Virus record (IMG/VR): IMGVR_UViG_3300009786_000019
Span: 1 to 51,111 of that record
DNA: 51,111 nucleotides
Direction: 5' to 3' (one strand)
DNA from: a virus
Position numbers and translations under genes: made by a program. Below the pieces are notes generated by a model, which was given only the letters and a program-made list of their open reading frames with translations, was not told the origin of the DNA and made no database searches. Positions 1 to 51,111 of the stretch are shown one piece after another. The stretch's first letter is position 1. Every line of letters begins with the position of its first letter.

Positions 1-1058
1 GACAGTATTTGGCCGTTATCTTCCGATATGGTGACAATATACGGGACTTTTATCCCCGTAGGTTCGCCTTCTTCGTCCACATCTTCGTATCCTTCAAGGT
101 CTAAATTGGCGTGAACCTCTAAAACCGTGCAATCGTAGTCATAATTGCTGGGTTCAACCCCATCAACATAGTCAATTTCTTTGCGAACCTCGTCAATGGA
201 CCCTTGGCCGGGTAAAACCTCAATATCTCGGTACTGTCCCCCAAGTTGTTTCTTCTTCAGATCGTTCAAAGACATGCGAACAACCTGCGTAATGTTCTCG
301 CAAGTGTCTAAATCCGACGTTTCATAGGGAACAACAAGGTTTTCCGCAGGTACAAACCTACTGACACAACGGCCCATCGCCTCATCATAGTAAATTTTCT
401 TAAAAGTGCTCCCTGCAAGCGGCAGATAGAACAACATCTGGTCCATGTCGGGGGTGTAATCCTCCATGACAGACGTTATGTAGTAGTTCATAAACTGCTG
501 AACTCGCCGGGCCTGATCCTTCTTCTCCAGCGTTTCTTCGCCCAAGACTTCTGTTTTTACAGGGCCACGGGAAGGCAATAATTCATTGAAAGCTTGCGCC
601 TGAAACTGCGTTGCAGCCTCCGCTAACAAGGGGTGGGTCACACCGCTGGAGCCTCGAAAGGGTTGTTCTCGCTCTTCGTAGTTAAAACCAAGCAGTTCCA
701 AGCCGTTTGCATACGCATCTTCCCAGTCGTGACGCCCCGCTTTGTTGGCATCAAACTGCTCAAGGAGATTGCTGGCAATGGCCCCCAGATCACGATCTGG
801 TATTTCTTCGGCTAAGTTGGCGTAAAAATCTTCGTTGGTGCCGCGATCATCGGTTGGATCAAAATCTACCGTAGCTCCGCCATCGGCTTCTAAAATAATT
901 TCAATAGAAGGCTCACCCTCAATATCCGACAGATTAACCAAAGGAGCTTGGGAATCGGGAATCTCTATCTCAAGTTCTGCCTCTAAATCTGCTTCATCCA
1001 GTTGTGACGGTACGTTGTTGTCCATCAACGAGCCACGGCCTCTTTGTTCCTCTGCCAT
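1..1058 (-). CDS. Portal protein, N-terminal part (continues at window end)
   Basis: This is the N-terminal 352 or so residues of the portal, the dodecameric ring at the capsid vertex through which DNA is packaged and ejected. The reading frame is open from ATG at 1058 to base 1 and continues in the same frame at 50988 because the contig is circular, giving 814 residues in all. An AGAGG site lies six bases before the ATG, and the gene starts three bases after the preceding gene's stop. The first 70 residues are very acidic; the body then carries the conserved W-E-D-A-Y and F-R-G-S-S-G-V-T-H-P region typical of P22-like portals in marine phages. Family assignment is by recognition of these motifs and its place after terminase. 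Confidence 0.85.
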   Translation of the reverse strand, partial: MAEEQRGRGSLMDNNVPSQLDEADLEAELEIEIPDSQAPLVNLSDIEGEPSIEIILEADGGATVDFDPTDDRGTNEDFYANLAEEIPDRDLGAIASNLLEQFDANKAGRHDWEDAYANGLELLGFNYEEREQPFRGSSGVTHPLLAEAATQFQAQAFNELLPSRGPVKTEVLGEETLEKKDQARRVQQFMNYYITSVMEDYTPDMDQMLFYLPLAGSTFKKIYYDEAMGRCVSRFVPAENLVVPYETSDLDTCENITQVVRMSLNDLKKKQLGGQYRDIEVLPGQGSIDEVRKEIDYVDGVEPSNYDYDCTVLEVHANLDLEGYEDVDEEGEPTGIKVPYIVTISEDNGQIL

Positions 1059-1061
1059 ACA

Positions 1062-2675
1062 TCACCTCTCCGGGTCTGTGCGATCCAGTATTATATCAAT
1101 CTGCTCTTGGATTTCAGGTTCTATGTCAGCGGCATCAGCAGTAGAGTTAACTGGCAACCCCGCCTCTCTCATTTGTTTGCTCAAAGCCGCCTTGTTTCTA
1201 ATGTTCTTTTCTGAACTTTTTCTCACGGGCTTGTCCATATCAAGTGTCCCTATTCCTTTTTCAGAAACTGTATCTGCTTGTTGTTGAGCCATAGCTTGTT
1301 CAGGTGTAAGTGTCGCTGCCCCAACCGCCGCCGCCAAAGGAATTGCCAATTTATATTTTCTAGCAATAGAAATAATCGCTGGATCATAAACCACCATGTT
1401 TTTAGTTTTTCCAGTCTTCGCGGTTCTTGAAAGGCGATCATTGTACTGGGCACCTTTTATGCCTTTCTTCGCCAACTCAATAGACAAAATATTTTCTACC
1501 CCAAATCCTAGATCAAAGGCTTGGCTCAAATCTTCAAAGCTTCTGTCTTGAGCAAGTAAAGCTTCTGTCAGACCTCTTCGTAAATTTTCTATTGGCATAT
1601 CTACCAAAGAATTTTTTAATTTTTCATTTGCTGGGCTTGGGACGCCAAACTCTTCCGCTACATCTTGTTTTTTCAAAATGCTTAAACCAACGTTAACTAG
1701 CCGTTCTTTTGGCAAGCTGTCTAAACTTCCATCGACAACGTCGATAATAGCATTTTTTACGTTTTGGGACTGGTTTATCAGGGTAGCATCATAATCTGCC
1801 AATAAATTAGGATCTACTTCAACATCGACATCATATCCGTAAGCCTTTGCCTTTCCCATAGGGATCATACGTGCGGCATTACCCTCCTCGTTGTACTTGA
1901 TGACGTAAGCTGATCCATCTTCAAACTCCAATCTTGTTAGGTTTTCTCGACCAAATTGGCGTGTAGTATCTACCACATTGGAACCAATCTCACCCTCACC
2001 TATCATTTCATCAACAAAGGCAGAAAAATTTTCTTGTGGAGCATCAGGCCCCTGCCTAAATTGAGGATCGTTTGGCCGCATGTCACCAAAACCAAACTGA
2101 TCTTCCAAATCTGCTGCCATTGAACCCTCTGGGGGCGGTTGTCGCTCGGCTTTCATTGTCGCCATCTGGCGATAATATTCGTCTACCTCTGCTGCCTTTG
2201 GATCGGACAGAAAAACACCTTGACCTTGAACATTTGCACCTTCCCCGGTTTTTATTGTTGTTGGATCAAGTTTAAATTCTTCAAAGCTATGGGGACTAGA
2301 GTGTTTGCGACGAAAAATCTGTTCAATGCCCTCTTTAGGAGCACCGCTTCCAATAGTAGACTTTGTTCCTCTGAAAATTTTTGGTAACTTTGCTGCAAAA
2401 CCCACCAAAGGAATTCCCCCCAATAGCTGTAAACCGCCATCAAGATATTCGCCCTCTAGCAAATTTTTATAAAGAGAGGGGTACCGCTCCCCGCTTCGTA
2501 ACATTTTACTAAAAGAAGTTTTTTTATCTGGCGAGGCTGGCCAAAAACCAAATAAATCTGCTATGCCTCCGGCACCTGTCATCAATCCTGCAAATTGACT
2601 AATCTCTGCTGGAGTATAGTTTTGAGCAATACGAGAAGTGTCTTGTACTAAGGATTGAATATACGGGTCAGACAT
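1062..2675 (-). CDS. Virion-associated polyvalent-type protein with ADP-ribosyltransferase-like motifs
   Basis: A 537-residue protein encoded between large terminase and portal. Two separated motifs resemble the ADP-ribosyltransferase-like domain of phage polyvalent proteins: H-S-F-E-E-F followed by GEGANVQGQGVFLS (about residues 129-157), and GIKGAQYNDRLSR followed by TKNMVVYDP (about 405-432). A short hydrophobic stretch (about 443-454) follows, then a polar tail containing GIGTL. Residues 75-100 are also hydrophobic. Its position suggests packaging in the head and delivery with the DNA, but that is inference. An alternative is a head-assembly protein that keeps only the fold. ATG at 2675, 12 bases after the terminase stop. 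Confidence 0.6.
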   Translation of the reverse strand: MSDPYIQSLVQDTSRIAQNYTPAEISQFAGLMTGAGGIADLFGFWPASPDKKTSFSKMLRSGERYPSLYKNLLEGEYLDGGLQLLGGIPLVGFAAKLPKIFRGTKSTIGSGAPKEGIEQIFRRKHSSPHSFEEFKLDPTTIKTGEGANVQGQGVFLSDPKAAEVDEYYRQMATMKAERQPPPEGSMAADLEDQFGFGDMRPNDPQFRQGPDAPQENFSAFVDEMIGEGEIGSNVVDTTRQFGRENLTRLEFEDGSAYVIKYNEEGNAARMIPMGKAKAYGYDVDVEVDPNLLADYDATLINQSQNVKNAIIDVVDGSLDSLPKERLVNVGLSILKKQDVAEEFGVPSPANEKLKNSLVDMPIENLRRGLTEALLAQDRSFEDLSQAFDLGFGVENILSIELAKKGIKGAQYNDRLSRTAKTGKTKNMVVYDPAIISIARKYKLAIPLAAAVGAATLTPEQAMAQQQADTVSEKGIGTLDMDKPVRKSSEKNIRNKAALSKQMREAGLPVNSTADAADIEPEIQEQIDIILDRTDPER

Positions 2676-2687
2676 CGGGACCTACTG

Positions 2688-4142
2688 TCAGTAATACATT
2701 TTCATTTTAACAGACTCAGCTTCCGCTTCCTCGTCCCAATCGTCACTTGGCAACTGTACAAAGTTACCCTGCCGATAGCGCATCAGCGCCTGAGTCATGC
2801 TATCCACTAAATCGTCATGCTCCCCGTTGGGGAAAGCCGCGACTTCTTCAATCAGTTCTTCTGCAAAAGCGGTGTCCGGATACCATACCATACCCGATTC
2901 AAATAAAGGAGAAACAGAATGAACCCTCGTGATCTTATCATTACCCCTAGAAGGCGTAAAGTTCACTACCGGTATACCCATCTGCCGCATTTCCTGCGTC
3001 AACGGCGTACCACTGGCCTTGGCCTCAACAATTACAGTATCGGGGTCCCAGAACTTATACTCATCAAACGCCATCTGTTTAAGCTCAGGAAAATCCCATC
3101 GACCTTTTTTACTGTCTAGTAAAATTAATCCGGGGGTCCCTGACTCGTTCGGGTAAAAAACACCCCACGTCGTAATCGCACTATAGTCGGCTGTCTCGCG
3201 CTTACTAAACGCGGTGTCATAACTCTGGATCACATAATTAAGATTCGGAACCTCTTCCTTATCCCACATCTGCCACCACTCGCGCTTGATAATCGCACCC
3301 TCTTCGTTCGTCGGATTCTGCTGATACTGCGCGTTCCACTTGCCCAAAGGTATTGATGCGCGAACCGCGTTCAAATCATCAAGACTCCAGAACTCAGGCC
3401 AACACGGCGTACCATCTTCAAAAATTGCCGGAAGCTCTACAATTTCCCACTGATCCGCTAAAGGATCTTTCGCCATTGCACGTAATAACTGGCCCGTCAT
3501 ATCCTTCTCAGACCAGCGCGTCTGCACCAGAACTATCGAACCACCGGGCTGTAACCGCTGCCGAGGACCACCCGTGTACCAATCCCACGCATCCTCAAAC
3601 CCAGAAGCCGACATCGCCGTCTGCTCCGAATGCGGATCGTCAATAATAATTAGATCACCACCACGTCCCGCTAAGTTAGAACCAACGCCCACGGCATAGT
3701 ACATGCCACCCGAACTCGTGTCCCACCGACCAGATGCCTTACTGTCAGCCGCTAACTTTACGTTGGAAAAAATTTCTTTGTACTCGTCCGAATCCAAAAG
3801 ATTCTTTGTCTTACGACCAAAGTTCACCGCAAGCTCTGTCGTATGCGTCGCCTGAAGTATCTTCATTCGCGGATTACGGCCCATCATCCACGCAGGAAAA
3901 AGAAAAGATGCAAACTCACTTTTCGTGTGCCGTGGAGCCATGTTGATGATCAATCGCTTTAAATCACCACTAGCCACGCGCTCAAGCTTTTCCGCAATAA
4001 TTTGATGATGACGACCAGCAATAAAGTCCGGCCACATGTTCTTTACAAAAACTAAAAAATTTTCCTTACACGTTTCGTTTTTTTCAATTTGAGCCAAACG
4101 AAGTTGCAATTTTAGTTCTTGCTCACTGACCTCTACATCCAT
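2688..4142 (-). CDS. terL: Terminase large subunit
   Basis: ATP-driven DNA packaging motor and headful/cohesive-end nuclease, 484 residues, a normal length. The N-terminal ATPase has a degenerate Walker A, PRHTKS (70-75), and a Walker B strand LIIIDDP (164-170), followed by the QTRWSEKD segment. The C-terminal RNase H-like nuclease shows an acidic strand SYDTAFSK (about 310) and a late D-D-L-V-D-S motif (about 450), as expected for the metal-binding aspartates. It is the first gene of the late block; the upstream 444 bp contain no gene. A weak AGGG lies eight bases before ATG 4142. Its small subunit is unusually distant, at 8649-9275, beyond several accessory genes. Confidence 0.93.
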   Translation of the reverse strand: MDVEVSEQELKLQLRLAQIEKNETCKENFLVFVKNMWPDFIAGRHHQIIAEKLERVASGDLKRLIINMAPRHTKSEFASFLFPAWMMGRNPRMKILQATHTTELAVNFGRKTKNLLDSDEYKEIFSNVKLAADSKASGRWDTSSGGMYYAVGVGSNLAGRGGDLIIIDDPHSEQTAMSASGFEDAWDWYTGGPRQRLQPGGSIVLVQTRWSEKDMTGQLLRAMAKDPLADQWEIVELPAIFEDGTPCWPEFWSLDDLNAVRASIPLGKWNAQYQQNPTNEEGAIIKREWWQMWDKEEVPNLNYVIQSYDTAFSKRETADYSAITTWGVFYPNESGTPGLILLDSKKGRWDFPELKQMAFDEYKFWDPDTVIVEAKASGTPLTQEMRQMGIPVVNFTPSRGNDKITRVHSVSPLFESGMVWYPDTAFAEELIEEVAAFPNGEHDDLVDSMTQALMRYRQGNFVQLPSDDWDEEAEAESVKMKMYY

Positions 4143-4434
4143 CTGGGGGACCCTAAAGTATGCGACTTTAAACGATTTAATAAGATAGTTAATCGCGGGT
4201 CAAGGATCATATCATTTTTCTGGTGATTATTTGCGAAGAACATGGCCCTTGTACTCGACTGACAGCCGCCGGGTCGCGGCCCGCGATGCGCTGCGCGGGC
4301 TGGATTCGACGGTTTCGATTAGCCTCGATTGCCGGAGGACCCGTGGAAGTTACTTTTAACGTATGGACTATCCCGGCAGGCTGCGGTCTGCGACGAATCG
4401 GGGAATGTGGAAGTTAACGTGATCACTTCCAACT

Positions 4435-4483
4435 GGTCCGGGGATCGTGGATCGTGGATCGTGGATCGTGGTCCGGGGATCGT
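4435..4483. repeat. Tandem GGATCGT repeats
   Basis: Four perfect head-to-tail copies of the 7-mer GGATCGT (4442-4469) are flanked on both sides by GGTCCGG, and a fifth GGATCGT follows at 4477-4483, touching the palindrome that begins there. A direct-repeat block next to a perfect palindrome looks like a protein-binding site, for example for terminase small subunit or a replication initiator. Confidence 0.8.
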
Positions 4484-4503
4484 TACCCAGGTGACCTGGG
4501 TAA
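4483..4503. repeat. 21-bp perfect palindrome upstream of terL
   Basis: Arms TTACCCAGGT and ACCTGGGTAA are perfectly complementary around a single central G. There is no T-run on either side, so it is not a terminator. A dyad operator or a recognition site for terminase or an initiator is more likely. Function is inferred from symmetry and location only. Confidence 0.75.
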
Positions 4504-4512
4504 AGTCTCATA

Positions 4513-4533
4513 CCGGGAACCGGGAACCGGGAA
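4513..4533. repeat. Three tandem CCGGGAA copies
   Basis: Three perfect 7-bp copies followed by a partial CCG. They sit between the palindrome and the terminator of the 4587-5309 gene. The repeat length is the same as in the GGATCGT block nearby, but the sequence differs. Confidence 0.75.
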
Positions 4534-4541
4534 CCGCGAGC

Positions 4542-4567
4542 AAAAAAAAGCCCGCACGGCGGCGGGC
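4542..4567 (-). terminator. Rho-independent terminator of the 4587-5309 gene
   Basis: On the minus strand, arms GCCCGC and GCGGGC with a short GC-rich loop are followed by eight T. Nearly the same hairpin is used at 5456-5480 and 6172-6197. Confidence 0.9.
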
Positions 4568-4586
4568 TTGGGTAGATCGGGGAAGG

Positions 4587-21187: not shown

Positions 21188-24100
21188 TCACTCGCTCCGC
21201 AAAGAACCAATACCCTGTTCTTCCGCCCGAATCAGACCAGACGTAATGTCTGACGGAAATAGGGCGGCGTACCGAGACCGGTCCACCGGCCCACTAGGGG
21301 CCGGGGCCGGAGCAGCAGGGGGCGGAGACATGGTGGGAGTAGTCTCTGCTCTCTGAAGTTGGCGTGATTCGCGGTCCATGAACTGCGGCACGGGTTGTAA
21401 CGAAGCTTGCGGGTCTGGCAACGGAACTATGGTTGTCGCTGGCTGTTCTTCTCTAACCTCCTCTTCTATTACGGGAGGCACTTCTTTAACAAACATAGGG
21501 TTTCGTCTAATTAAAGTTTCCCCTAAAAGTTGATTTACTGCGCTAACAGACTTTCCAAATTGTTTCTCGTCTGTTGTTTCTCGTAACGCTGCCGCCAATG
21601 CTTTAGGGTTTTCCATTATTCGTACCATTTCTTGTACGATTAAAGTTTCAGGTCCGGTAATAAACAAACGAGGACCCGCTTGAGCGCCAACACTACCGGC
21701 TACAACTCCTGCACCAACCAAATCGCCCTGTATAACATTGCCAAAACCCGGAATACTTTTTATTAAACCCTTAAACCTTTCTAAAGCTGTGCCTACGGCT
21801 AATGCGCCAGCAATTTTTAACGCTCCTAATTTTGCTACACTACCTTTCTTAAAAAGAATTGGAGATAAGTCTCCTGTTTCAAAAGCTTCATCCACAGAAT
21901 TTATGGTTTTAATCATTTGTTGAAGATTTTTAACGTATTGATCATCAACTAAATCGTTTTTCTTCATAAAGTCTATGAGTTTAAAATCTAAACTCAAATC
22001 AACGCTTTTCAAAGGATCAAAAAGATAAGACTGAAAAGCTTTTGCGTTAAATTTTGTGCCGAAATTACCAGACTTTAAAGCGGCTGCGTTGATTAGAGAT
22101 GCACGGAAACCCTCAAGAACTTGCTTTGTGGTGTAGGATACCCCTGTTTCGGGGTCTACAACGTCACCAAGTTGTTTTATGTTATCAACCATTCTTTGTA
22201 AGGTTCTAGCCGGAGGTATATTTACACCTTCTGAAGACGTTCCTGATAAAATCTGTGACATCGTTGTTGCCGCAGATTCCGGTCTTTTTAAAAACAAACG
22301 AAAAGCAACGTTTTCTGATGTGTTTTTTAACACGTTATTATCAATAGTAGTTGCGTTTATAAGTTGCTGTGCTTTTTCCAAAGAACTTAAATCTTTTTTT
22401 AATGTTGGAAACGTACTAAAAAGTCTTTGCGCTCTTTCAGAATTTCTAAAAGTTTCTAACTTTTTAGAATCTACAGTTCGAGAAACAACTTCACCTGTAA
22501 CCGGATCTGTTGTTTGGTTAACAAACTCTCTATTAACATTTCTGATTGCTTCTAAAACTGTTTCTCCTAGCTCTTCCTCTTGTTGTGCAGCATTAAAAGG
22601 CACATTTCTCTGTTGACGACCAGCAGAGTCCGTAAAATCAACAGTCTCTACGCCTTCAAATTTTTCTTCAAAACCTATTTCTTTAAAAGCTTTCCTGTCC
22701 ATGACTCCGGGCGCAAAAGAATCATCAAACTCTTGAGCGGCCCTCATAATCTGCTCTACTCTTTGTGCTTCTATTCGTGAGCCTTTCTTTAAAAGATTTA
22801 AAGCGTCCGAAGCGTCAATTAAACCCGCTCCGTCGCCTGTAGTTCTTGTCATTTGTCCTAAAAGAGTTCTTTTAAAAACGTTTGCCCCAGCAAAACTGTA
22901 CGCTTTTGCATCAAGATATGCTTGTCTACCCGCTGTTTGTGGATCTAATGAATATAAATCCTCGTCCATTGCTCTTACTAATCTACCTAAAAATTCACCT
23001 CCTTGCGCGTTCGGCACTACACCTGAAATCATGGAGCGAGTTTTTTTCTTTAACGCACTGCGAATACTTTGAAACGTTTCTAAATCGAGAGGGTTGACAG
23101 TTACTTTGAGACTTCCATCTTGATTCGTTGCGCCTGTAAAAAAATCAATAATATCGTCAATGTCAGCTTTGTAGTCTCCAAGGGCCGATTCAAACTCAGC
23201 TTTGCTACCTCGAACACGTCCAAAATCTAAACCTCCTTTGTTTGCTGAAAGGCCGAAAATTTCAACCATTGCAGGTACACCAGAAGAACTCCCATCTTGT
23301 TTGTTGAAAGGACCGGCTATGGTGAAATTAGGTATTTCGTCCCAAAGTTGGCCTTCTCTCTTTTTAAAAGCAGCAATTTGCTTTTCTAGTAGCTCATAAA
23401 GTTTGGGAGCAATTTCGTTGGCTTTGTCTTGCGGTATCTCATCTAAATTTGTAATGTCTGGATAAATTTTTCGCAAAGAAGTTTCTAAAGTATTAACGGC
23501 AAGTTCCATGCTGTTAACAAGCTGCTGTTCCATTAAGCCTTGTTGAATAATGCTTGCCATCGTCAAAGCTTCAGGATGATCAACTAAAGCTAATGCTTCT
23601 ATTTTTCGTTTTGCCTCTGAAATAAACTGCTCTTTACCTGCATCTGAAGCCATCGCTAAAGCATCACTGGATGCACTTAATTGTCGGTCAAGCTCTTTTA
23701 AAATAGATGAAAAAGGAGTGTCTTTTACTTGTGCAGAAGCAGTAGCAGCAATGTCGTCTGGAAGTTCAATAGAAGGATCTAATAAAATTTTCCTTAATGC
23801 CGCTATTTCTTCTTCTGGAGTGCCAGAGGTAGGAAACTCCGGATGGGTAAAAATAAACTTAAACAAACGGCTTGCAGCTTGTTTTCCGGTTTTGTCCCCT
23901 ACAAATGTTTCTGCGGCCTCTTGCGGGCTTTTAGCAATGGCTATAGCTCGTTTTCCGTAATCAAGAAGACCTCCGAATAAAGCTGTCCCTGTTTTTGTAA
24001 CAAGAGGAGTAGCCCCCGCTGTTGATAATTCAAATCCTAATCTAGCTAACACGCTACCGGGAGCAATTTCTTCTGCTAAATAAGCACCGCTCGCCGCCGC

Positions 24101-25183
24101 ACCGGACATTAAAGATTCCAAGCCAATAAAAGCTTTAGGGTTTTTTGCAGCTTCAGTCAAACCTTTTGCCACACCTTCTGCAATCGCAGTCGGAAGTCTT
24201 GCTTTAATAGGCCCTTTTGTTGCATCAGGCCTAACTTTCTCTTTAAGTTTTCCGATACGAGTTGTAGGTGCGGGCCGGTCTCTAAGCCTCATTGCCCGTT
24301 CAAACTCTTTTCGGCCCAGACTTCTGATTAAAGCCTCATCCATTACTTTCGGATCAAATTTACCAGACGCTACCGCTTTAAAGTTTTTTAAGAACTTTAG
24401 ACCTTGAAAGCTTTCTACAACGGGTTTTATAGCTATTTTTGCGGCTGCCGCTGGGGTTGCCAAGGCGCTAATACCATAAGTAAACGTTTCCCCCGCATTG
24501 TATGAAGATTGCAAAGAAGGCAACAAAATGGGGTCATCTGCATCAAAAATAAAATCATCAACTAAACTGCCTAAATAAGCAGCAGCACCCCCGCCAATAA
24601 ACCCGCCTACAATAGCAGCACCACCTACAACCAAAGGTCCATAAGGACCCGCATAAGCCGCAGGTACAGCAGCCGCTATAGCAGCCGCTCTTGCACCCGC
24701 AAGGCCCCCCGGTATAGAAAAAGCCGCAGGTACAGCAGCCCTCCCTGCACCAGCTCTTAAAGCGTCTAATCGCGGGGACGGCTCTACAAATTTTTGTTCG
24801 CCAGTTTCTTCGTCAACCACAGGGATGTTGTCGTATTTACCGTAGTCTTCTACATCTGTAAACAGTGTTAAAATCTGTTCGTCATTTTGCCGCCTTCCAG
24901 ATGGGCCAAGGGACTGATCAACACTAGGCAATATGTCCAAAATTGGTGAAGTTCCATCCAGTAATTCTTCATATATAATTTCAGTTTCAGGGAACAAAGC
25001 ATTAACAACCTCAACAACTTCTTGAGTAACTCCGGTTAATCCTTTTTCTTTTATTTTTTCTTGAAAATAAAGAGGGTCGTTAAAACTGTAAAGTGCGCCA
25101 GACAGAGGCGCAGGAGTTGTTGAAGCAGGAACGCTACTTTGTCCATTAGTTAAAGCGGGGGAGCTAGTCGTTGTCGTAACCAT
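21188..25183 (-). CDS. Large internal virion / ejection-type protein
   Basis: 1331 residues, the largest protein here. After a Thr/Ser/Pro-rich start, residues 150-215 form Ala/Gly-rich hydrophobic segments (G-G-L-A-G-A-R-A-A-A-I-A-A-A-V-P-A-A-Y-A-G and V-V-G-G-A-A-I-V-G-G-F-I-G-G-G-A-A-A-Y), then a long helical body rich in K, E and Q. The C-terminus is proline-rich and ends E-E-Q-G-I-G-S-L-R-S-E. Size, membrane-seeking stretches and position after the tail genes fit a core protein that enters the cell envelope with the DNA, as in P22 gp16 or T7 gp16. No lytic domain seen. Confidence 0.6.
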   Translation of the reverse strand: MVTTTTSSPALTNGQSSVPASTTPAPLSGALYSFNDPLYFQEKIKEKGLTGVTQEVVEVVNALFPETEIIYEELLDGTSPILDILPSVDQSLGPSGRRQNDEQILTLFTDVEDYGKYDNIPVVDEETGEQKFVEPSPRLDALRAGAGRAAVPAAFSIPGGLAGARAAAIAAAVPAAYAGPYGPLVVGGAAIVGGFIGGGAAAYLGSLVDDFIFDADDPILLPSLQSSYNAGETFTYGISALATPAAAAKIAIKPVVESFQGLKFLKNFKAVASGKFDPKVMDEALIRSLGRKEFERAMRLRDRPAPTTRIGKLKEKVRPDATKGPIKARLPTAIAEGVAKGLTEAAKNPKAFIGLESLMSGAAASGAYLAEEIAPGSVLARLGFELSTAGATPLVTKTGTALFGGLLDYGKRAIAIAKSPQEAAETFVGDKTGKQAASRLFKFIFTHPEFPTSGTPEEEIAALRKILLDPSIELPDDIAATASAQVKDTPFSSILKELDRQLSASSDALAMASDAGKEQFISEAKRKIEALALVDHPEALTMASIIQQGLMEQQLVNSMELAVNTLETSLRKIYPDITNLDEIPQDKANEIAPKLYELLEKQIAAFKKREGQLWDEIPNFTIAGPFNKQDGSSSGVPAMVEIFGLSANKGGLDFGRVRGSKAEFESALGDYKADIDDIIDFFTGATNQDGSLKVTVNPLDLETFQSIRSALKKKTRSMISGVVPNAQGGEFLGRLVRAMDEDLYSLDPQTAGRQAYLDAKAYSFAGANVFKRTLLGQMTRTTGDGAGLIDASDALNLLKKGSRIEAQRVEQIMRAAQEFDDSFAPGVMDRKAFKEIGFEEKFEGVETVDFTDSAGRQQRNVPFNAAQQEEELGETVLEAIRNVNREFVNQTTDPVTGEVVSRTVDSKKLETFRNSERAQRLFSTFPTLKKDLSSLEKAQQLINATTIDNNVLKNTSENVAFRLFLKRPESAATTMSQILSGTSSEGVNIPPARTLQRMVDNIKQLGDVVDPETGVSYTTKQVLEGFRASLINAAALKSGNFGTKFNAKAFQSYLFDPLKSVDLSLDFKLIDFMKKNDLVDDQYVKNLQQMIKTINSVDEAFETGDLSPILFKKGSVAKLGALKIAGALAVGTALERFKGLIKSIPGFGNVIQGDLVGAGVVAGSVGAQAGPRLFITGPETLIVQEMVRIMENPKALAAALRETTDEKQFGKSVSAVNQLLGETLIRRNPMFVKEVPPVIEEEVREEQPATTIVPLPDPQASLQPVPQFMDRESRQLQRAETTPTMSPPPAAPAPAPSGPVDRSRYAALFPSDITSGLIRAEEQGIGSLRSE

Positions 25184-27858
25184 TATTTTCTCTCCCGCTG
25201 TCGATTAAGCTCATCTCGTAAAGTGCTTTGATCGTCATTTCGATTACCTGACTGTGTTTCACCAAAAGCAGAGTTTGGAAAGCCTAAAGCAAGTTTTAAG
25301 TTATCTTCAAAAGCAACCAGTTCTGCAATTACACTTTCTAAACGTCTTTGTTCTCGTTGAATTGGCAACAATTTAGAAGCTTCAGGTACATTAATATTAA
25401 AATAGTCAGGCAAACTCAAAGCATTATCCGCAAACAAAATTTGCAACTGTTCACGTATACCGCCTACGGCTGCTAAATTATTTGCATCGTATGCAAAAAT
25501 ACCTGAATTAACTTCATCTTTTACACGTTCAATTTCTGCCGAAATACGAGCGGGTATACGGTTCTCAATAGTTGTATCAACTAAAGCTCCTGTCAGTTGC
25601 AACATCAAATTTTGCATTTTTCTATCAACGTCAAATTTCATTTTGCCGTCTGGGGTAAGGCGGTCCTCTTTAAGACCAAGTTCTCGAAAAAGTTCTCTCG
25701 CATTGTCTATAACTCTATCGGGAATGCTGCCAATTCCAATATATTTTTCGAGTTCTAGGTCTTCTGCTGAAAAAATTGACGTTGGGCGTAATCGCCAAGC
25801 CAAAGAATCAGGATTTACCTGACCGCTAGGATTAAAATATAATTTTTTAAACTCAGGGCTTTGATAAATTTCTACAGGAACTTTACCGTCTTTATACTGT
25901 CTTCCAATTTCAGCAGCAATTTTTATCTGGTTTTGTAGTTTAGTCTCTCTTCTTTGCGCTTCGTTTAGTACAGCTTCGCCTTTTGCTACGTCCCCTGCGT
26001 TTAGAAACTTTTCAAGCTCTGGCGTAACAGGTTTAATTTGAGGAAACAGCTTTGAAAAATCTGAAGTAGGTAGACCGCTTTCTAAACGAGTTCTGTAAGA
26101 ATTTGTTACTAATTTGGTCGGAGTGTCTGCACTTGTAATAGTGCCGCCCTGACCGTCTGGTCGTTCTTTTGGCGAATATTGTTCCGCTATGGCTGCTTCA
26201 ATAATTGCAACACTTTCAGGATCTAAAGCTCCGGTTCCGTAAGCCGCCATACTAGTTGGATCTGATAAAATTCGTAATGTATCGCTTAGTTGTGGCTTGT
26301 CAGCTTTGATAGCGGCAGTTCCCGCTAAAACGAGACTATCAGGGTGTAATGCCTGAAGCTCAGAAAGACGATTTGCACCATCGGGACTGGTAACGTCAAT
26401 TAAATAAGTTTGGCCTGTATCAGTATTCACGAAATTCTTATAATTAACGCGCTGTGCGGCAGTAGATTGTGTAGCCGGACCTGTAAGAACTTGGTTTGGG
26501 TCCTTAACAAGTGCGTCGTACTCAGGTGTTCTTTTTATTACAGTGGTAAGATTTCCAGTTGTTTGGTCTTGAAAATTTACTGGTTTTGGTCCTGTATCGC
26601 TTTGACTAGCGGCACCAAACTCGACAAACCCCATTTGCGAGTAAAAGCGTTGTACACTTTTTGGAACGTTTATCATAGTATCTGGTCGGCCTTGCAAACC
26701 AATATTTACCATTCCGGTAGGCATGTTTTTAATTCGTTGCAATGCCCTAGCTTGTTCAGAAGCAGTTAAATCGCTTCTACTTTTTATTGCGCTTTGTAAT
26801 GCCGCCGTGTCTAAAGTTAAAGTCTGTTTTTGTCGAGTTAATTCTTGTTCTTTTTTTAAATCAAACAAGCTTTGACTTCTTGCCCCAAGCTTATCGAACA
26901 ACTGTGTTTCTTGTGCGGATTCTGCCAAACGTTCAGCGGGACTCATTTGCCGTGAGCCGGGAGTCGCGAACGCTAACGCGGTGTTCGCAACGTCAAACAG
27001 CATTTGTGCTTGCGTTTGCTCTCTTTGTTGTTGCAATAGTTGCTGGTTCAACTCGTCACTAGGCCTGATACTTCGATATACGTCTTTGAACTCACTAAAT
27101 TCTTCTTTCAAAGTTGGTACATCAATTGTTGGATATTGATTTTGCAATAAAGCTAATTGTTCAGGCGTGGGGACTTCAGGACGAACAACACGTTGCAGAT
27201 TTTCATCAGCAAAATACTGTACGGCACCCCCTTGGTTAAAATTTACAGGGGGCTGACTACCAACCTCCATCATTGCAGCTTCGGCGGGCATCTCAGGAGC
27301 CATATTGACGGTAGACATAATGCCCTCGGCCATCGGACCCTCTACCGAAGTTTCCATCATTTCTTCTTCGGCTAAACTGCCAATACCCTGATCAATACCG
27401 GCAAGCTGCATGACAGGCTGCACCAGAGCTAATACTGTATCCGGCGTTTGTTGTGCATCATCAGGACCCACATATTCTGCAAGTTCTGCTCGGCGGGCTT
27501 CAACCGGTTGCACATCTCCGCGAACCGCGTTCATCATTTCTTCCAAATCGTCAGAATCTTCAAGCGTGTCCATCTGCCCTTGCATTTGCTCAAAAATTTG
27601 AGTAAATCCTTCGGGAGAGGCTTGTCCTTCTTGCGGCATCATCATGGGATCTTGCGGCATCATTGCTGGTCCGGGAGCCGCGATCATCGGTTCTTCCATC
27701 ATCATGGGCGCTTGAGGGACCATGCCACCCTCTTGCTTTTCGATTACGCCGCGCCCCATCAAAATGTCTTTTTGGGTAACTTGCCCATCACCGCTCAAGT
27801 CAGGAAAGGCTACGCCCCCCATCTTAAACATCTGACGATTCATTAAACCTCTGTTCAT
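25183..27858 (-). CDS. Virion protein with EF-hand-like loop and Met/Pro-rich region
   Basis: 891 residues. Near the N-terminus D20-L-S-G-D-G-Q-V-T-Q-K-D31 fits the 12-residue EF-hand calcium loop (acids at 1, 5 and 12). Residues 45-75 are Met/Pro-rich. D-Q-G-I-G-S-L-A lies at about residue 155-160. The rest (about 230-890) is a long, helix-rich, Gln/Leu-rich body with no enzyme motif. Its ATG overlaps the previous stop as ATGA, and its stop overlaps the next start as TAATG, so the two neighbours and this protein are co-translated. Likely an internal core or ejection protein. Confidence 0.6.
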   Translation of the reverse strand: MNRGLMNRQMFKMGGVAFPDLSGDGQVTQKDILMGRGVIEKQEGGMVPQAPMMMEEPMIAAPGPAMMPQDPMMMPQEGQASPEGFTQIFEQMQGQMDTLEDSDDLEEMMNAVRGDVQPVEARRAELAEYVGPDDAQQTPDTVLALVQPVMQLAGIDQGIGSLAEEEMMETSVEGPMAEGIMSTVNMAPEMPAEAAMMEVGSQPPVNFNQGGAVQYFADENLQRVVRPEVPTPEQLALLQNQYPTIDVPTLKEEFSEFKDVYRSIRPSDELNQQLLQQQREQTQAQMLFDVANTALAFATPGSRQMSPAERLAESAQETQLFDKLGARSQSLFDLKKEQELTRQKQTLTLDTAALQSAIKSRSDLTASEQARALQRIKNMPTGMVNIGLQGRPDTMINVPKSVQRFYSQMGFVEFGAASQSDTGPKPVNFQDQTTGNLTTVIKRTPEYDALVKDPNQVLTGPATQSTAAQRVNYKNFVNTDTGQTYLIDVTSPDGANRLSELQALHPDSLVLAGTAAIKADKPQLSDTLRILSDPTSMAAYGTGALDPESVAIIEAAIAEQYSPKERPDGQGGTITSADTPTKLVTNSYRTRLESGLPTSDFSKLFPQIKPVTPELEKFLNAGDVAKGEAVLNEAQRRETKLQNQIKIAAEIGRQYKDGKVPVEIYQSPEFKKLYFNPSGQVNPDSLAWRLRPTSIFSAEDLELEKYIGIGSIPDRVIDNARELFRELGLKEDRLTPDGKMKFDVDRKMQNLMLQLTGALVDTTIENRIPARISAEIERVKDEVNSGIFAYDANNLAAVGGIREQLQILFADNALSLPDYFNINVPEASKLLPIQREQRRLESVIAELVAFEDNLKLALGFPNSAFGETQSGNRNDDQSTLRDELNRQRERK

Positions 27859-30503
27859 CCGAATAACCCCGCTCTATTTGCACCTGCCGCAGCAGACAAA
27901 CCTGCTACACCCAAGCCAAGGAATGTTTGTGCTGGTGACACATTAGGTGAAGATTGTGCAGTCACTGACATTTGTGACGATGGTGCGCCTTTGTAGATGT
28001 CAGACAAAAAGCCCACTCGTTGATAAGGCTCGTAAATCTGCGCCATTTGGTTCTGCCGGTTTGCTTCCAGAACTGCTTGATTCTGCGCTTGCTCAGTTTT
28101 ACCAAGATCGAACAAGAATCCTTGCTCACGTTGTCCCAGATTCTGACCAAGTTCGCCAAGACTGGCCTGTTGTAAGCCCAGTGTACCAAGTTGCTTGCCC
28201 TGCTCAAGCCCTAATCGGGCAACATCGCTGCCAAGTGCCGCGATCCCTTTGCCTATATCCGCTTGCATACCCAGACCTTGTAAACCTAGCTGACCCGACG
28301 CTTGTGCTCCCTGCATACCCATTTGAGCCATGCCTTGGCCCAATCTCCCCGATGTTTCAGCACCTTGCATACCCATCTGAGCTATGTTTTGACCTAATCT
28401 CCCCGATGTTTCAGCACCTTGCATACCCATCTGGCCCATGTTTTGACCTAATCTCCCAGATGTTTCAGCGCCTTGCATACCCATCTGAGCTATGTTTTGA
28501 CCTAATTGACCAGAAGTCTGAGCACCCTGCATACCCATCTGGGCCATGCTTTGTCCTAATTGACCGCTACTTTGCGCTAATCGTCCGGCAAGTTCAGAGG
28601 CTTGCATACCAGTTTGCGCGGCGGCTTGCTCCAGACCTAAGCCTGTTGATGCCAAAGACTGAGCATTAGCAGAGGCAAATTGTTCTGCGGTCATGCCCAG
28701 TTGCGCGGCTTTAGCAGTGTTCTGAGCGGCTTGCTGTTGCGCGGCAAGCCCTAATTGACCCCCGCTCAATGCTCCAGTCTGTCGCAGTTGTTGTGCATCA
28801 AGTCCAGTACGAGCCATTAGCTGCTGACCCGTCAAATCAAGTTGGCCTTGTTGCATAGCTTGTTGTGCGGCTAGTTGTTCCGCCGAAAGTCCAAGACTAC
28901 CTGCGGCTTGTGCCGCCCCTGCTGCGGCCTGAGATCCTTGAGAACCCAGTGCGCCGGTTAATTGTGCGGCTTGTTGTTGACGCGCTTGCTGTTGTTCAAA
29001 GGCTTGTTGCGCTCTTTGCGAGGCGCTTTCAAAACCTGATTGACGTAATTGTGAAGCCGCTTTTGCTTGCTGCTCTAAAACATTTCTTCCCAGTTCACTT
29101 TCCATGATACCGCTTCGGGAACCACCGAAAGCCCCTGCTGACACAGCCTGTGCTCTTTGTTGTTCGCGCTGAATATCGCCCTGCCTTGCAATATCTCCAA
29201 GCGTTCGGTCAATAACCTCTTGTTCAAAAGGGTTCATAAACCGTTGCGACGCATTCGGATCAAACTCGCCGGTAGAACCATACAAATCGGCAATACCCCG
29301 CGCCGCAGTGCCCATGCCGAACTGTCCGGCTCTGGATAAATCTTGTGCCGCTCCCGCAGTAATATCTCGACTACGCGCAGTAGCATCTGCGGCGTCGTCA
29401 TAAGATCTTTGACGGGACCGTAAAGTACCCGCTTGCGCCTGACGTTGAACGTTTTCCGCTGCGCGGCCAACATCCTGAACACCCGACATTGTTTGCCCAA
29501 ACACATCTAAACCGCCTTGTGTGGCGGCACCTAACTGTTGTCCGGCTTGTCCTGCAAGCGCCCTACTCGTTTCCGTAGTAGGCGCTAAACTAGCGCCTAA
29601 TTGCCCAACAATTTCTCTGCCCCGTGTTCCAAGGCCCGTGGCTACTCCAGCAGCACCCGTTGCCGCCGCTTGCATTCCTGCTTGTGCTTGACGGGTATCA
29701 CCTAAACCAGTTCTTAAAGCATCGCCTATTCCCGCTTGCGCTTGACGAGTGTCTCCTAGACCAGTTCTTAAAGCATCGCCTATTCCTGCTTGTGCTTGAC
29801 GAGTGTCTCCTAAACCAGTTCTTAAAGCATCGCCTATTCCTGCTTGTGCTTGACGGGTGTCTCCTAGACCAGTTCTTAAAGCATCGCCTATTCCCGCTTG
29901 TGCTTGACCGGTATCCCGAAAACTTGAGCTTAAAGCATCGCCTATTCCCGCTTGCGCTTGACGGGTATCACCTAGACCAGACCGTAAAGCACTGGTTAGG
30001 CCTCTTTGTGCAGCGCCCGTATCGCGTATACCCGCCCCCAAAGCGCCCGTAATTCCTTGTTGTGCTCCAGAAACTTGAGTACCTACTCCTTGACCGGCGG
30101 CATCCATATATTGTGCCGCTCTGGTTTGATAGGGCTGCGCTTGTGCAATTGCGCCAGATGTTGCTGTTTGTGCCTGACCTAACGTGTTGGTAGCGCCTTC
30201 TAAATAAGGTTGAAAGCCCCCAATACCTCCAGCAGCTTGCGCCAAAGCTTCTCTTTGCAAAGGCGTCATTCCAGCAATTTGCTGTTGTGGGAGTTGTACA
30301 AAGGGCCTTTGCTTCTCTTCAATCTCACCCGTTTCCGGGTTACGCTCTTTGTACGTTTCCATGATCATGTTGCCGTCAGCGTCGTACTGAGGCACACCCA
30401 CGGGTTGTCGTGCTAGGTCTAGAGAATCCCGTAAAAGCCCTAGCTTATAGGCTTCAATATCCGGGGATTCACGGATAATCTGTTCTGTAGTGTCAACGGC
30501 CAT
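27855..30503 (-). CDS. Repeat-rich helical virion protein
   Basis: 882 residues dominated by Ala, Gln and Gly. It contains two unrelated families of tandem 18-residue repeats: near the N-terminus R-T-G-L-G-D-T-R-Q-A-Q-A-G-I-G-D-A-L (about five copies), and near the C-terminus M-G-M-Q-G-A-E-T-S-G-R-L-G-Q-N-I-A-Q (about five). An 18-residue period equals five helical turns, fitting a long fibrous helix. It sits between two ejection-type proteins, so it may be a rod-like core or tape-measure-like protein, perhaps forming a channel. The stop and start overlaps with neighbours are by one to four bases. Confidence 0.62.
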   Translation of the reverse strand: MAVDTTEQIIRESPDIEAYKLGLLRDSLDLARQPVGVPQYDADGNMIMETYKERNPETGEIEEKQRPFVQLPQQQIAGMTPLQREALAQAAGGIGGFQPYLEGATNTLGQAQTATSGAIAQAQPYQTRAAQYMDAAGQGVGTQVSGAQQGITGALGAGIRDTGAAQRGLTSALRSGLGDTRQAQAGIGDALSSSFRDTGQAQAGIGDALRTGLGDTRQAQAGIGDALRTGLGDTRQAQAGIGDALRTGLGDTRQAQAGIGDALRTGLGDTRQAQAGMQAAATGAAGVATGLGTRGREIVGQLGASLAPTTETSRALAGQAGQQLGAATQGGLDVFGQTMSGVQDVGRAAENVQRQAQAGTLRSRQRSYDDAADATARSRDITAGAAQDLSRAGQFGMGTAARGIADLYGSTGEFDPNASQRFMNPFEQEVIDRTLGDIARQGDIQREQQRAQAVSAGAFGGSRSGIMESELGRNVLEQQAKAASQLRQSGFESASQRAQQAFEQQQARQQQAAQLTGALGSQGSQAAAGAAQAAGSLGLSAEQLAAQQAMQQGQLDLTGQQLMARTGLDAQQLRQTGALSGGQLGLAAQQQAAQNTAKAAQLGMTAEQFASANAQSLASTGLGLEQAAAQTGMQASELAGRLAQSSGQLGQSMAQMGMQGAQTSGQLGQNIAQMGMQGAETSGRLGQNMGQMGMQGAETSGRLGQNIAQMGMQGAETSGRLGQGMAQMGMQGAQASGQLGLQGLGMQADIGKGIAALGSDVARLGLEQGKQLGTLGLQQASLGELGQNLGQREQGFLFDLGKTEQAQNQAVLEANRQNQMAQIYEPYQRVGFLSDIYKGAPSSQMSVTAQSSPNVSPAQTFLGLGVAGLSAAAGANRAGLFG
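28290..28560 (-). repeat. Five 54-bp tandem repeats in the 882-residue protein (C-terminal family)
   Basis: The string GCATACCC recurs on the plus strand at 28313, 28367, 28421, 28475 and 28529, exactly 54 bp apart. The units code for 18 residues around M-G-M-Q-G-A-E-T-S-G-R-L-G-Q. Confidence 0.93.
29676..29996 (-). repeat. 54-bp tandem repeats in the 882-residue protein (N-terminal family)
   Basis: The string CTTAAAGCATCGCC recurs at 29713, 29767, 29821, 29875 and 29929, again exactly 54 bp apart. The units code for 18 residues around G-L-G-D-T-R-Q-A-Q-A-G-I-G-D-A-L. They share the period, but not the sequence, of the family at 28290-28560. Confidence 0.93.
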
Positions 30504-49601: not shown

Positions 49602-51111
49602 TTAACGCCCCTGTTGTTTTAAAATTTCACGTTCTCTTGCTGCTGCTATTCTAGCCGCAGTTTGCGATTCTTGCGAATCCAAACGCTGGTTAAACTGTCT
49701 GTCCCGCATAGCAATAGTCTCTGCATTAAGCTCTACTTTGGTTTGATCAATCTGAGCATCCGCTTGATCACGCTGCGCTCGTAGCTGTAATTCCTGCTCT
49801 TTCAGTGCTACCAGAGGATCTGGCCCTTCCTGACCCGCGCCTGAAAGCTGCTGAGAAAGCTGCTGAAGTTGCTGCATCCCTTCTGCAACAAACTGTGCCG
49901 TCAATGCCTCTACCTGAAGCATCTCTTCTGGCGATAGAGGCTCACCTTCGCGCTCCGTCACTTTCTGCATATAAGCCACCGACGCCCGTTCACGAGCCGC
50001 CAGCTTAACATGTTGCAGTACGTGTTTTTGTAGTTGTACGGCGATTGGCGGTAAAGAAGCAACCATTGGTGTACCACCAAAAATTAAATGCGCCGTGATG
50101 TGCGCTTGGTGATCCTGACCCTCAAAAGCTTGCAACTCCAGCATATTCATGGAGTCTATGTTCTCTTGGGCAGGGTCCGTGGGCCGTGGGTCGGGAAGTG
50201 CTTTCATAATCCGATCAATATCCGTCACGCCCAACGCCTCGTACATATCACGATATACTTCGTGCAGGTTATGCAAATCGGGTGCTGCCGTCGCAAGTTC
50301 TAACTTACTTTGTGCTAAAGCAATACGCTGTGCCTGACTGAAAGTATTAGGATTACTGATCGGGATGACATCAATGCGATCATCAAAATCGTCTGCCATT
50401 ACGCTACGATCCGCGCCCGCTACAGCATACGGGTACTCTGGAGGAAGACTCTCACCCATTACCCGCGCAAGAATCCTAAATTCAATCCGCATGGCGTAAT
50501 GCAAGCGTTTATGGACTGCACTCATCACTCGTGAGCCTTGCTCAATCATCGCCATCGTCGTGCCAACCGCCGCCGATGGATCAGTATCACCAATTTTCAT
50601 GTCAGTAATGGTCGCAAACCGTTGACCCGCCTGAACAACAAAGCCTAATAGCTGAAACAGCGTGGGATCGGGTCCCTTAAAGGGTAACGGCATCAAACTA
50701 TCCCGAATTGCCCCGCCGGGAGCGTCTACATCCCTGAATTCACCGGGCTGGAGAGGCTCATCATTGTCCCTGATCCGTAGGCCACGGGCCTTGAACCCTG
50801 CGGGAAGGTTACTAAGCGTCCCAGCATCAATAAGTTGCCGTAAAGCAGACGTTGCCGTGCGGGAAAGGCCACCAATGGTGTGAATTAGCCCTAATCCGTA
50901 GAATCCGAAGCCCGGAAGGAACTTATAATGAACAAAATATTGGATTTTTTTCTTTAATTCGTCATCTTCGCCGTAATTTCTACGAATCGACAGTATTTGG
51001 CCGTTATCTTCCGATATGGTGACAATATACGGGACTTTTATCCCCGTAGGTTCGCCTTCTTCGTCCACATCTTCGTATCCTTCAAGGTCTAAATTGGCGT
51101 GAACCTCTAAA
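49602..51111 (-). CDS. Portal protein, C-terminal part (starts at window beginning)
   Basis: C-terminal ~502 residues of the portal, whose start lies at 1058. The frame enters from the window end; 50989-51111 duplicates 1-123. Contains F-L-P-G-F-G-F-Y-G-L-G-L-I-H-T-I-G-G-L and S-A-A-V-G-T-T-M-A-M-I-E-Q-G-S-R-V-M, matching P22-like portals' stem and wing. The last 120 residues are a Gln/Glu-rich helix that would form the barrel reaching into the head. An M at 51068 is internal and not the real start. Confidence 0.88.
   Translation of the reverse strand, partial: LEVHANLDLEGYEDVDEEGEPTGIKVPYIVTISEDNGQILSIRRNYGEDDELKKKIQYFVHYKFLPGFGFYGLGLIHTIGGLSRTATSALRQLIDAGTLSNLPAGFKARGLRIRDNDEPLQPGEFRDVDAPGGAIRDSLMPLPFKGPDPTLFQLLGFVVQAGQRFATITDMKIGDTDPSAAVGTTMAMIEQGSRVMSAVHKRLHYAMRIEFRILARVMGESLPPEYPYAVAGADRSVMADDFDDRIDVIPISNPNTFSQAQRIALAQSKLELATAAPDLHNLHEVYRDMYEALGVTDIDRIMKALPDPRPTDPAQENIDSMNMLELQAFEGQDHQAHITAHLIFGGTPMVASLPPIAVQLQKHVLQHVKLAARERASVAYMQKVTEREGEPLSPEEMLQVEALTAQFVAEGMQQLQQLSQQLSGAGQEGPDPLVALKEQELQLRAQRDQADAQIDQTKVELNAETIAMRDRQFNQRLDSQESQTAARIAAAREREILKQQGR
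50989..51111. repeat. 123-bp exact repeat of the window start
   Basis: Bases 50989-51111 equal 1-123 without mismatch. The break is inside the portal coding region, so this is best read as assembly overlap of a circular or circularly permuted genome, not a biological terminal repeat. Confidence 0.93.

Follow-up and report, generated by a model that had tools for sequence, protein, structure and literature searches.

A gene encoding a 537-residue protein, here designated P0001, lies between the genes for the terminase large subunit (TerL) and the portal protein of a marine phage in the IMG/VR record IMGVR_UViG_3300009786_000019. We interpret this gene, with a probability of roughly one half, as the ADP-ribosyltransferase (ART)-bearing allele of a polymorphic slot between TerL and portal, the product of which would dock through a constant C-terminal tail, travel as virion cargo and act in the host. 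The record was analysed over its entire length of 51,111 nucleotides, referred to as the window. Judged from sequence comparisons, TerL and portal flank a slot for polymorphic effectors in which a C-terminal tail is kept constant. It is the locus that appears to be new here; the ART-like family and its packaging-gene neighbourhood were already known. Our search, mostly of freely available literature, found no published description of the slot or of its tails.

The locus between TerL and portal

The preliminary description of this DNA, which was made from the letters alone, placed a 537-residue protein between terminase and portal. ORF calling and translation confirmed the protein on the minus strand, and both neighbours were identified as TerL and portal. 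The gene order is TerL, P0001 and portal, with gaps of 12 nt between TerL and P0001 and 2 nt between P0001 and the portal gene.

2688-4142, minus strand: terminase large subunit, TerL (phrog_38, E=4.8e-111)
1062-2675, minus strand: slot gene P0001, the putative ART-bearing allele (ORF and translation; relatives L002-L005 at 79-99%)
1-1059, minus strand: portal protein, N-terminal part (phrog_1216), continuing at 49602-51111 across the record ends
49602-51111, minus strand: portal protein, C-terminal part (phrog_1216, E=1.9e-30)

The two ends of the record overlap, positions 1-123 and 50989-51111 being identical over 123 bases. Because of this overlap and of the portal gene running across the ends, the record probably represents an entire genome that was linearised within the portal gene. 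Among deposited phages, the closest match of the window TerL is Pelagibacter phage HTVC027P with 62.6% identity. A tblastn search of 50,697 phage records with P0001 or with the start of its ART region gave nothing useful; accordingly, none of these deposited phages has a close copy of P0001. The non-coding stretch before TerL (4143-4586) contains short direct repeats (ggatcgtggatcgtgg, gggaaccgggaaccgggaacc) and a terminator-like hairpin and is a possible packaging or regulatory region.

A divergent ART-like domain

Direct searches of Pfam, PHROG and PDB sequences with P0001 gave no match. A search of 2.9 million viral contigs for DNA encoding G-E-G-A-x3-G-x-G-(hydrophobic)-(F/Y) gave at least 120 matching contigs. 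Of the first 80, almost every one codes for a member of a single recognisable family, termed the GEGA family, with the pattern HGSPHDFDKFDxSKIGTGEGAQAYGHGLYFAE ... LDWDKPLSxQ ... GIPGIKYLDxGSR...GTRNYVVFDD. A hidden Markov model (HMM) of 30 other phage proteins of this family, with P0001 left out, matched residues ~121-447 of P0001 with 97.6 bits and E=3.1e-28. The match is not circular, since it holds with the collecting motif masked (E=2.9e-19 without the GEGA block and 9.7e-18 with the H block masked too) and fails with shuffled sequences, the best of 200 shuffles of P0001 reaching E=1.7. The Pfam model ART-PolyVal (PF18760) was matched by four of the five GEGA members scanned (E 3e-7 to 4e-5) and weakly by the fifth, one of the four exceeding the curated cut-off; the same model matched neither P0001 nor its pieces. 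P0001 is thus a divergent member of the GEGA family, which is common in phages. As P0001 matches its GEGA relatives and these match PF18760, it is by transitivity, as far as sequence tells, also distantly related to ART-PolyVal, and we do not class it as a Pfam member.

The two motifs from which the ART-like domain had been proposed, GEGANVQGQGVF at residues 144-155 and GIKGAQYNDRLSR...TKNMVVYDP at residues 405-432, are both present. The family HMM, the link to PF18760 and the structural matches to predicted viral proteins in BFVD described below support their assignment to the two ends of a phage polyvalent-type ART-like domain. Polyvalent proteins combine several effector domains in a single polypeptide and are delivered with the DNA (PMC5512222); P0001 has a single recognisable effector domain in addition to an N-terminal module and a C-terminal tail. 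The N-terminal module shares 38-48% identity (BLAST) with the slot proteins of relatives L006, L010 and L012, whose middles differ.

2385-2675, minus strand: N-terminal module, residues 1-97 (BLAST between slot proteins)
1335-2315, minus strand: ART-like domain, residues 121-447 (HMM E=3.1e-28; model pLDDT 75.8)
2301-2303, minus strand: H125, the predicted catalytic His of strand 1 (His in 96/97; model and alignment)
2211-2246, minus strand: GEGANVQGQGVF block, residues 144-155 (F155 in place of the Tyr found in 95/97)
1383-1463, minus strand: C-terminal ART block, residues 405-431 (invariant N426; D431)

Just after the domain, an Ala-rich stretch and an EQAMAQ-like motif occur at residues 443-464 as well as in the stand-alone GEGA ARTs of L128 and L098. 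A transmembrane segment in P0001 was considered and dismissed: the best 19-residue hydropathy is 1.29, and the Ala-rich stretch is not strongly hydrophobic.

The ART domain was modelled from 97 sequences with a pLDDT of 75.8 and a pTM of 0.69, and a full-length model from five near-identical sequences was discarded (pLDDT 35.6). The fold search that had been suggested as a check had a divided outcome. Foldseek against BFVD retrieved 20 predicted viral proteins at E<=0.001, with E down to 1e-9, among them proteins named ART-PolyVal-like, PolyVal ADP-ribosyltransferase and large polyvalent protein. The low TM-scores of these matches (0.24-0.42 by query length) make the support for an ART fold modest. 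Against solved structures, Foldseek found no ART and nothing at E<=0.001, and the ART fold of P0001 hence rests on the family rather than on a solved homologue. Profile matches in the PDB to HIV gp41 coiled coils, each stretch at E about 0.04-0.07, were rejected as chance matches of helices.

The active site of polyvalent ARTs is H-Y-D, with the Asp in strand 5 (PMC5512222). H125, F155 and N426 of P0001 are located in predicted strands 119-127, 154-157 and 425-429, respectively, which in the model are strands of the kind holding the ART triad. Of the 97 aligned sequences, 96 have His at position 125, 95 have Tyr and two have Phe at position 155, and all have Asn at position 426. D431, which follows strand 425-429, is D or E in 79 of the 97. 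The alignment of catalytic residues thus left a mixed result, with H125 and N426 kept and Tyr replaced by Phe155, and neither a fold without an ART core nor a lack of the catalytic residues, either of which had been named as speaking against an ART, was encountered. The close relative L004 also has Phe at position 155. From the sequence, this replacement may lower or abolish the transfer.

P0001 could accordingly be a pseudo-ART that kept the fold, perhaps with binding of NAD or ADP-ribose, and lost the transferase to serve as a decoy or binder. F155 fits such a loss, as does S126 in place of the usual Gly of H-G-S/T. On the other hand, H125, N426, the G-rich loop, Y168, D296, Q302 and R417 are all retained, and the domain has been under purifying selection (dN 0.058 and dS 0.251 against L004). 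We consider this degenerate form unlikely.

P0001 resembles ART-PolyVal in the strand-1 His, in the G-rich loop followed by an aromatic residue in strand 2, in the conserved block at the C-terminal strand and in the phage packaging neighbourhood, with GEGA-type members reaching PF18760. It differs in falling below Pfam detection, in having Phe for Tyr, in the long inserts inside the domain and in the last core strand, which bears the invariant Asn with the acidic D431 five residues on. T4 Alt is an ART of the R-S-E type (PMC5512222). Alt is packaged, as we propose for P0001, which would likewise act at entry; however, P0001 has H125, F155 and N426 at the places corresponding to R-S-E in Alt and VIP2, and we found no sequence relation between Alt and P0001.

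The preliminary description regarded both the place and the stand-alone form of the protein as unusual. Neither view is borne out by the family. Among 97 immediate neighbours of GEGA-family genes, the TerL families phrog_2 and phrog_7579 account for 18 and 13, and portal families for 8, 6 and 4, where one protein may match more than one PHROG family. Genes for terminase, portal and capsid proteins are frequent neighbours of phage ART genes, about 44% of which have surroundings that point to packaging (PMC9503650). TerL and portal being among the commonest neighbours, in agreement with this published survey, the location of P0001 is ordinary for its family. Stand-alone forms are frequent as well, since about 50 of the first 80 GEGA members listed are ORFs of <700 residues, some of them cut by contig ends.

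Exchanged cassettes and constant tails

We fetched 80 related contigs with TerL as an anchor and read the interval from TerL to portal, which is complete in 71, some of them near duplicates. The slot is empty in 18 of the 71 (gap up to about 50 nt) and filled in 53, with one or two genes and up to 3.7 kb. A gene with an HExxH motif is found in 24 intervals, and 17 of 65 slot proteins have weak Pfam matches to DUF6973. Besides the window lineage, we counted as ARTs only the PF18760-type slot proteins of L046 and L083, which have a different tail (tail B), because the loose pattern HG[ST] over-calls ARTs. Pelagibacter phage HTVC027P, HTVC023P and the more distant phage DSL-LC04 each encode yet another protein in the TerL-portal interval; most of these proteins are uncharacterised, and that of DSL-LC04 is PcfJ-like. 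None of the three slot proteins gave a significant match to the tail of P0001 (tail A).

1199-2631, minus strand: exchangeable cassette, absent from L009, which has an unrelated HExxH cassette instead (blastn breakpoints)
1065-1223, minus strand: tail A, residues 485-537, constant C-terminal part (tail HMM; 45 of 53 filled slots)

The exchange is clearest in the comparison with L009. On the upstream side, the DNA of L009 is 93.9% identical to the window, and this similarity extends into the slot gene as far as codon ~15; it resumes 46 codons short of the end of that gene and continues into the portal gene with 99.5% identity. Between these breakpoints, the 1,432-nt ART cassette of the window is replaced in L009 by an unrelated one of about 1,150 nt with HEYRH. 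L006, L010 and L012 lose DNA similarity to the window at nearly the same breakpoints. Exchange appears to have occurred within the ART module as well: in a comparison with L004, another carrier of the ART, dS of P0001 is 0.86 for residues 1-110, 0.20 for 111-180, 0.04 for 181-300, 0.60 for 301-400 and 0.71 for the tail, and the low values over residues 111-300 suggest that part of the module was recently exchanged.

Tail A comprises ~50 residues with the consensus MDxRNNAxGxxLLKxAGxxATPxxLxxxVDxxxFxQLDxILGR. In 45 of the 53 filled slots it forms the C-terminus or ends within about 50 residues of it. L015 encodes the HExxH (peptidase-like) protein and tail A in two distinct genes, whereas L014 and L020 have a single gene for the fusion of both. 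Among the ORFs searched, tail A was found in slot proteins only, and in the window once, in P0001. For the window we therefore discarded the idea of a general tag that marks several proteins per genome for packaging, and tail A may serve something local. In relatives, the weak DUF6973 match runs into the start of tail A, so that tail A may also be part of, or descend from, an ancestral domain instead of being a tag.

Other slot proteins, which have HExxH or ART domains, terminate in a second tail, tail B (...RGPRGVASLAPVARNMNRPMVS). In members called with an HMM it ends exactly at the stop codon (L046:4993-7113, L083:2512-4473, L086:8614-11025 and about 12 others). A 66-residue ORF before the portal gene in L036 and L038 ends with a remnant of tail B, and in L042:2989-4560 tail B is internal (residues 202-237 of 524), as if two slot genes had been fused.

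The tails might owe their constancy to the DNA, as a homology arm for cassette exchange or as the region where portal translation starts, and have no function as a tag. The breakpoints of the swap coincide with the tail boundary, and the last bases of tail B, directly before the portal ribosome-binding site, are conserved also at third codon positions, which makes a recombination or portal-translation anchor possible there. For tail A, however, dS is saturated in 646 of 741 pairs, codon positions 1 and 2 agree in 58% and position 3 in 32%, and the median dN/dS is 0.32 in the 90 measurable pairs, all of which argues that the protein is under selection. A purely DNA-level role of the tail is thus doubtful.

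The sole match for the tail in a genome collection was L211, a contig of a Verrucomicrobiales MAG. We rejected it as an unreliable pointer to the host, as L211 and the virus contig L017 both have 21,061 b and are probably one phage contig binned with a bacterium. A short motif, F/K-x-x-G-G-V/A/R, recurs between modules of slot proteins and in some GEGA ARTs (e.g., KFEDGGAV, TFADGGSV and KAEGGV; L077:6383-10123, L022:8280-10799, L111, L103) and could represent linkers or processing sites.

A proposed role as virion cargo

The virus probably carries P0001 as cargo and delivers it to the host cell. It would be made together with the packaging and head genes and taken into the virion, where the tail is the best candidate for docking to portal, TerL or the procapsid. 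After entering the cell along with the DNA, the ART-like domain would use NAD+ to modify a host macromolecule or act on an NAD/ADP-ribose-based defence, and the cassettes would be exchanged in the course of an arms race over host targets. We prefer the tail as a docking or loading element because it stays while the enzyme changes and because the gene is situated among packaging genes. More tentatively, and with somewhat less confidence than for P0001 itself, the slot proteins may constitute a new class of polymorphic effectors of marine phages delivered by the virion, in which the short C-terminal tails A and B act as a cargo-loading tag and bring freely exchanged enzymes, among them ARTs and metallopeptidase-like proteins, to the head at the TerL-portal locus.

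The absence of the slot gene from about a quarter of the intervals counts against the cargo reading. As an accessory gene missing in 18 of 71 intervals, it could instead encode a late intracellular protein that makes use of the late operon, is not packaged and takes part in host takeover, in anti-defence or in excluding other phages. The constant tail on unrelated enzymes and the position between packaging genes fit delivery better, and ARTs near terminase and portal have been predicted to be packaged (PMC9503650; PMC5512222). We therefore judge a purely intracellular role improbable. Even less probable is a role in assembly, as a minor protein of the head or one associated with the portal, in which the enzyme domains would be decoration: the gene is among head genes and the window has one tail A per genome, but a gene missing from about a quarter of related intervals is not essential for assembly.

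The nearest working analogues of the proposed cargo are the MuF polymorphic toxins of temperate phages, which combine a constant part with variable enzymes in the terminase/portal module (PMC5576092). The two systems differ in several respects. The MuF toxin gene directly follows the portal gene, whereas P0001 directly precedes it; the constant part of MuF toxins is N-terminal, whereas the best conserved constant part in the slot is C-terminal; and P0001, which gave no Pfam match of any kind at E<=10, has no MuF domain. MuF toxins come with a small downstream immunity gene; here the slot gene is followed after 2 nt by the portal gene, which leaves no room for one, and a toxin-immunity pair was accordingly rejected.

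Should the tail prove to be a loading signal, sequence alone would tell which gene products of abundant marine phages, most of them without a known function, reach the host together with the DNA. The tail would also provide a small tag for loading phage heads with an enzyme of choice. The natural swap from ART to HExxH in a near-identical phage offers a ready-made allelic comparison of effector action on the host. Elsewhere in the window, three very large neighbouring ORFs (1331, 891 and 882 residues; 21188-30503), two of which were scanned against PHROG with no match, are possible internal virion or ejection proteins.
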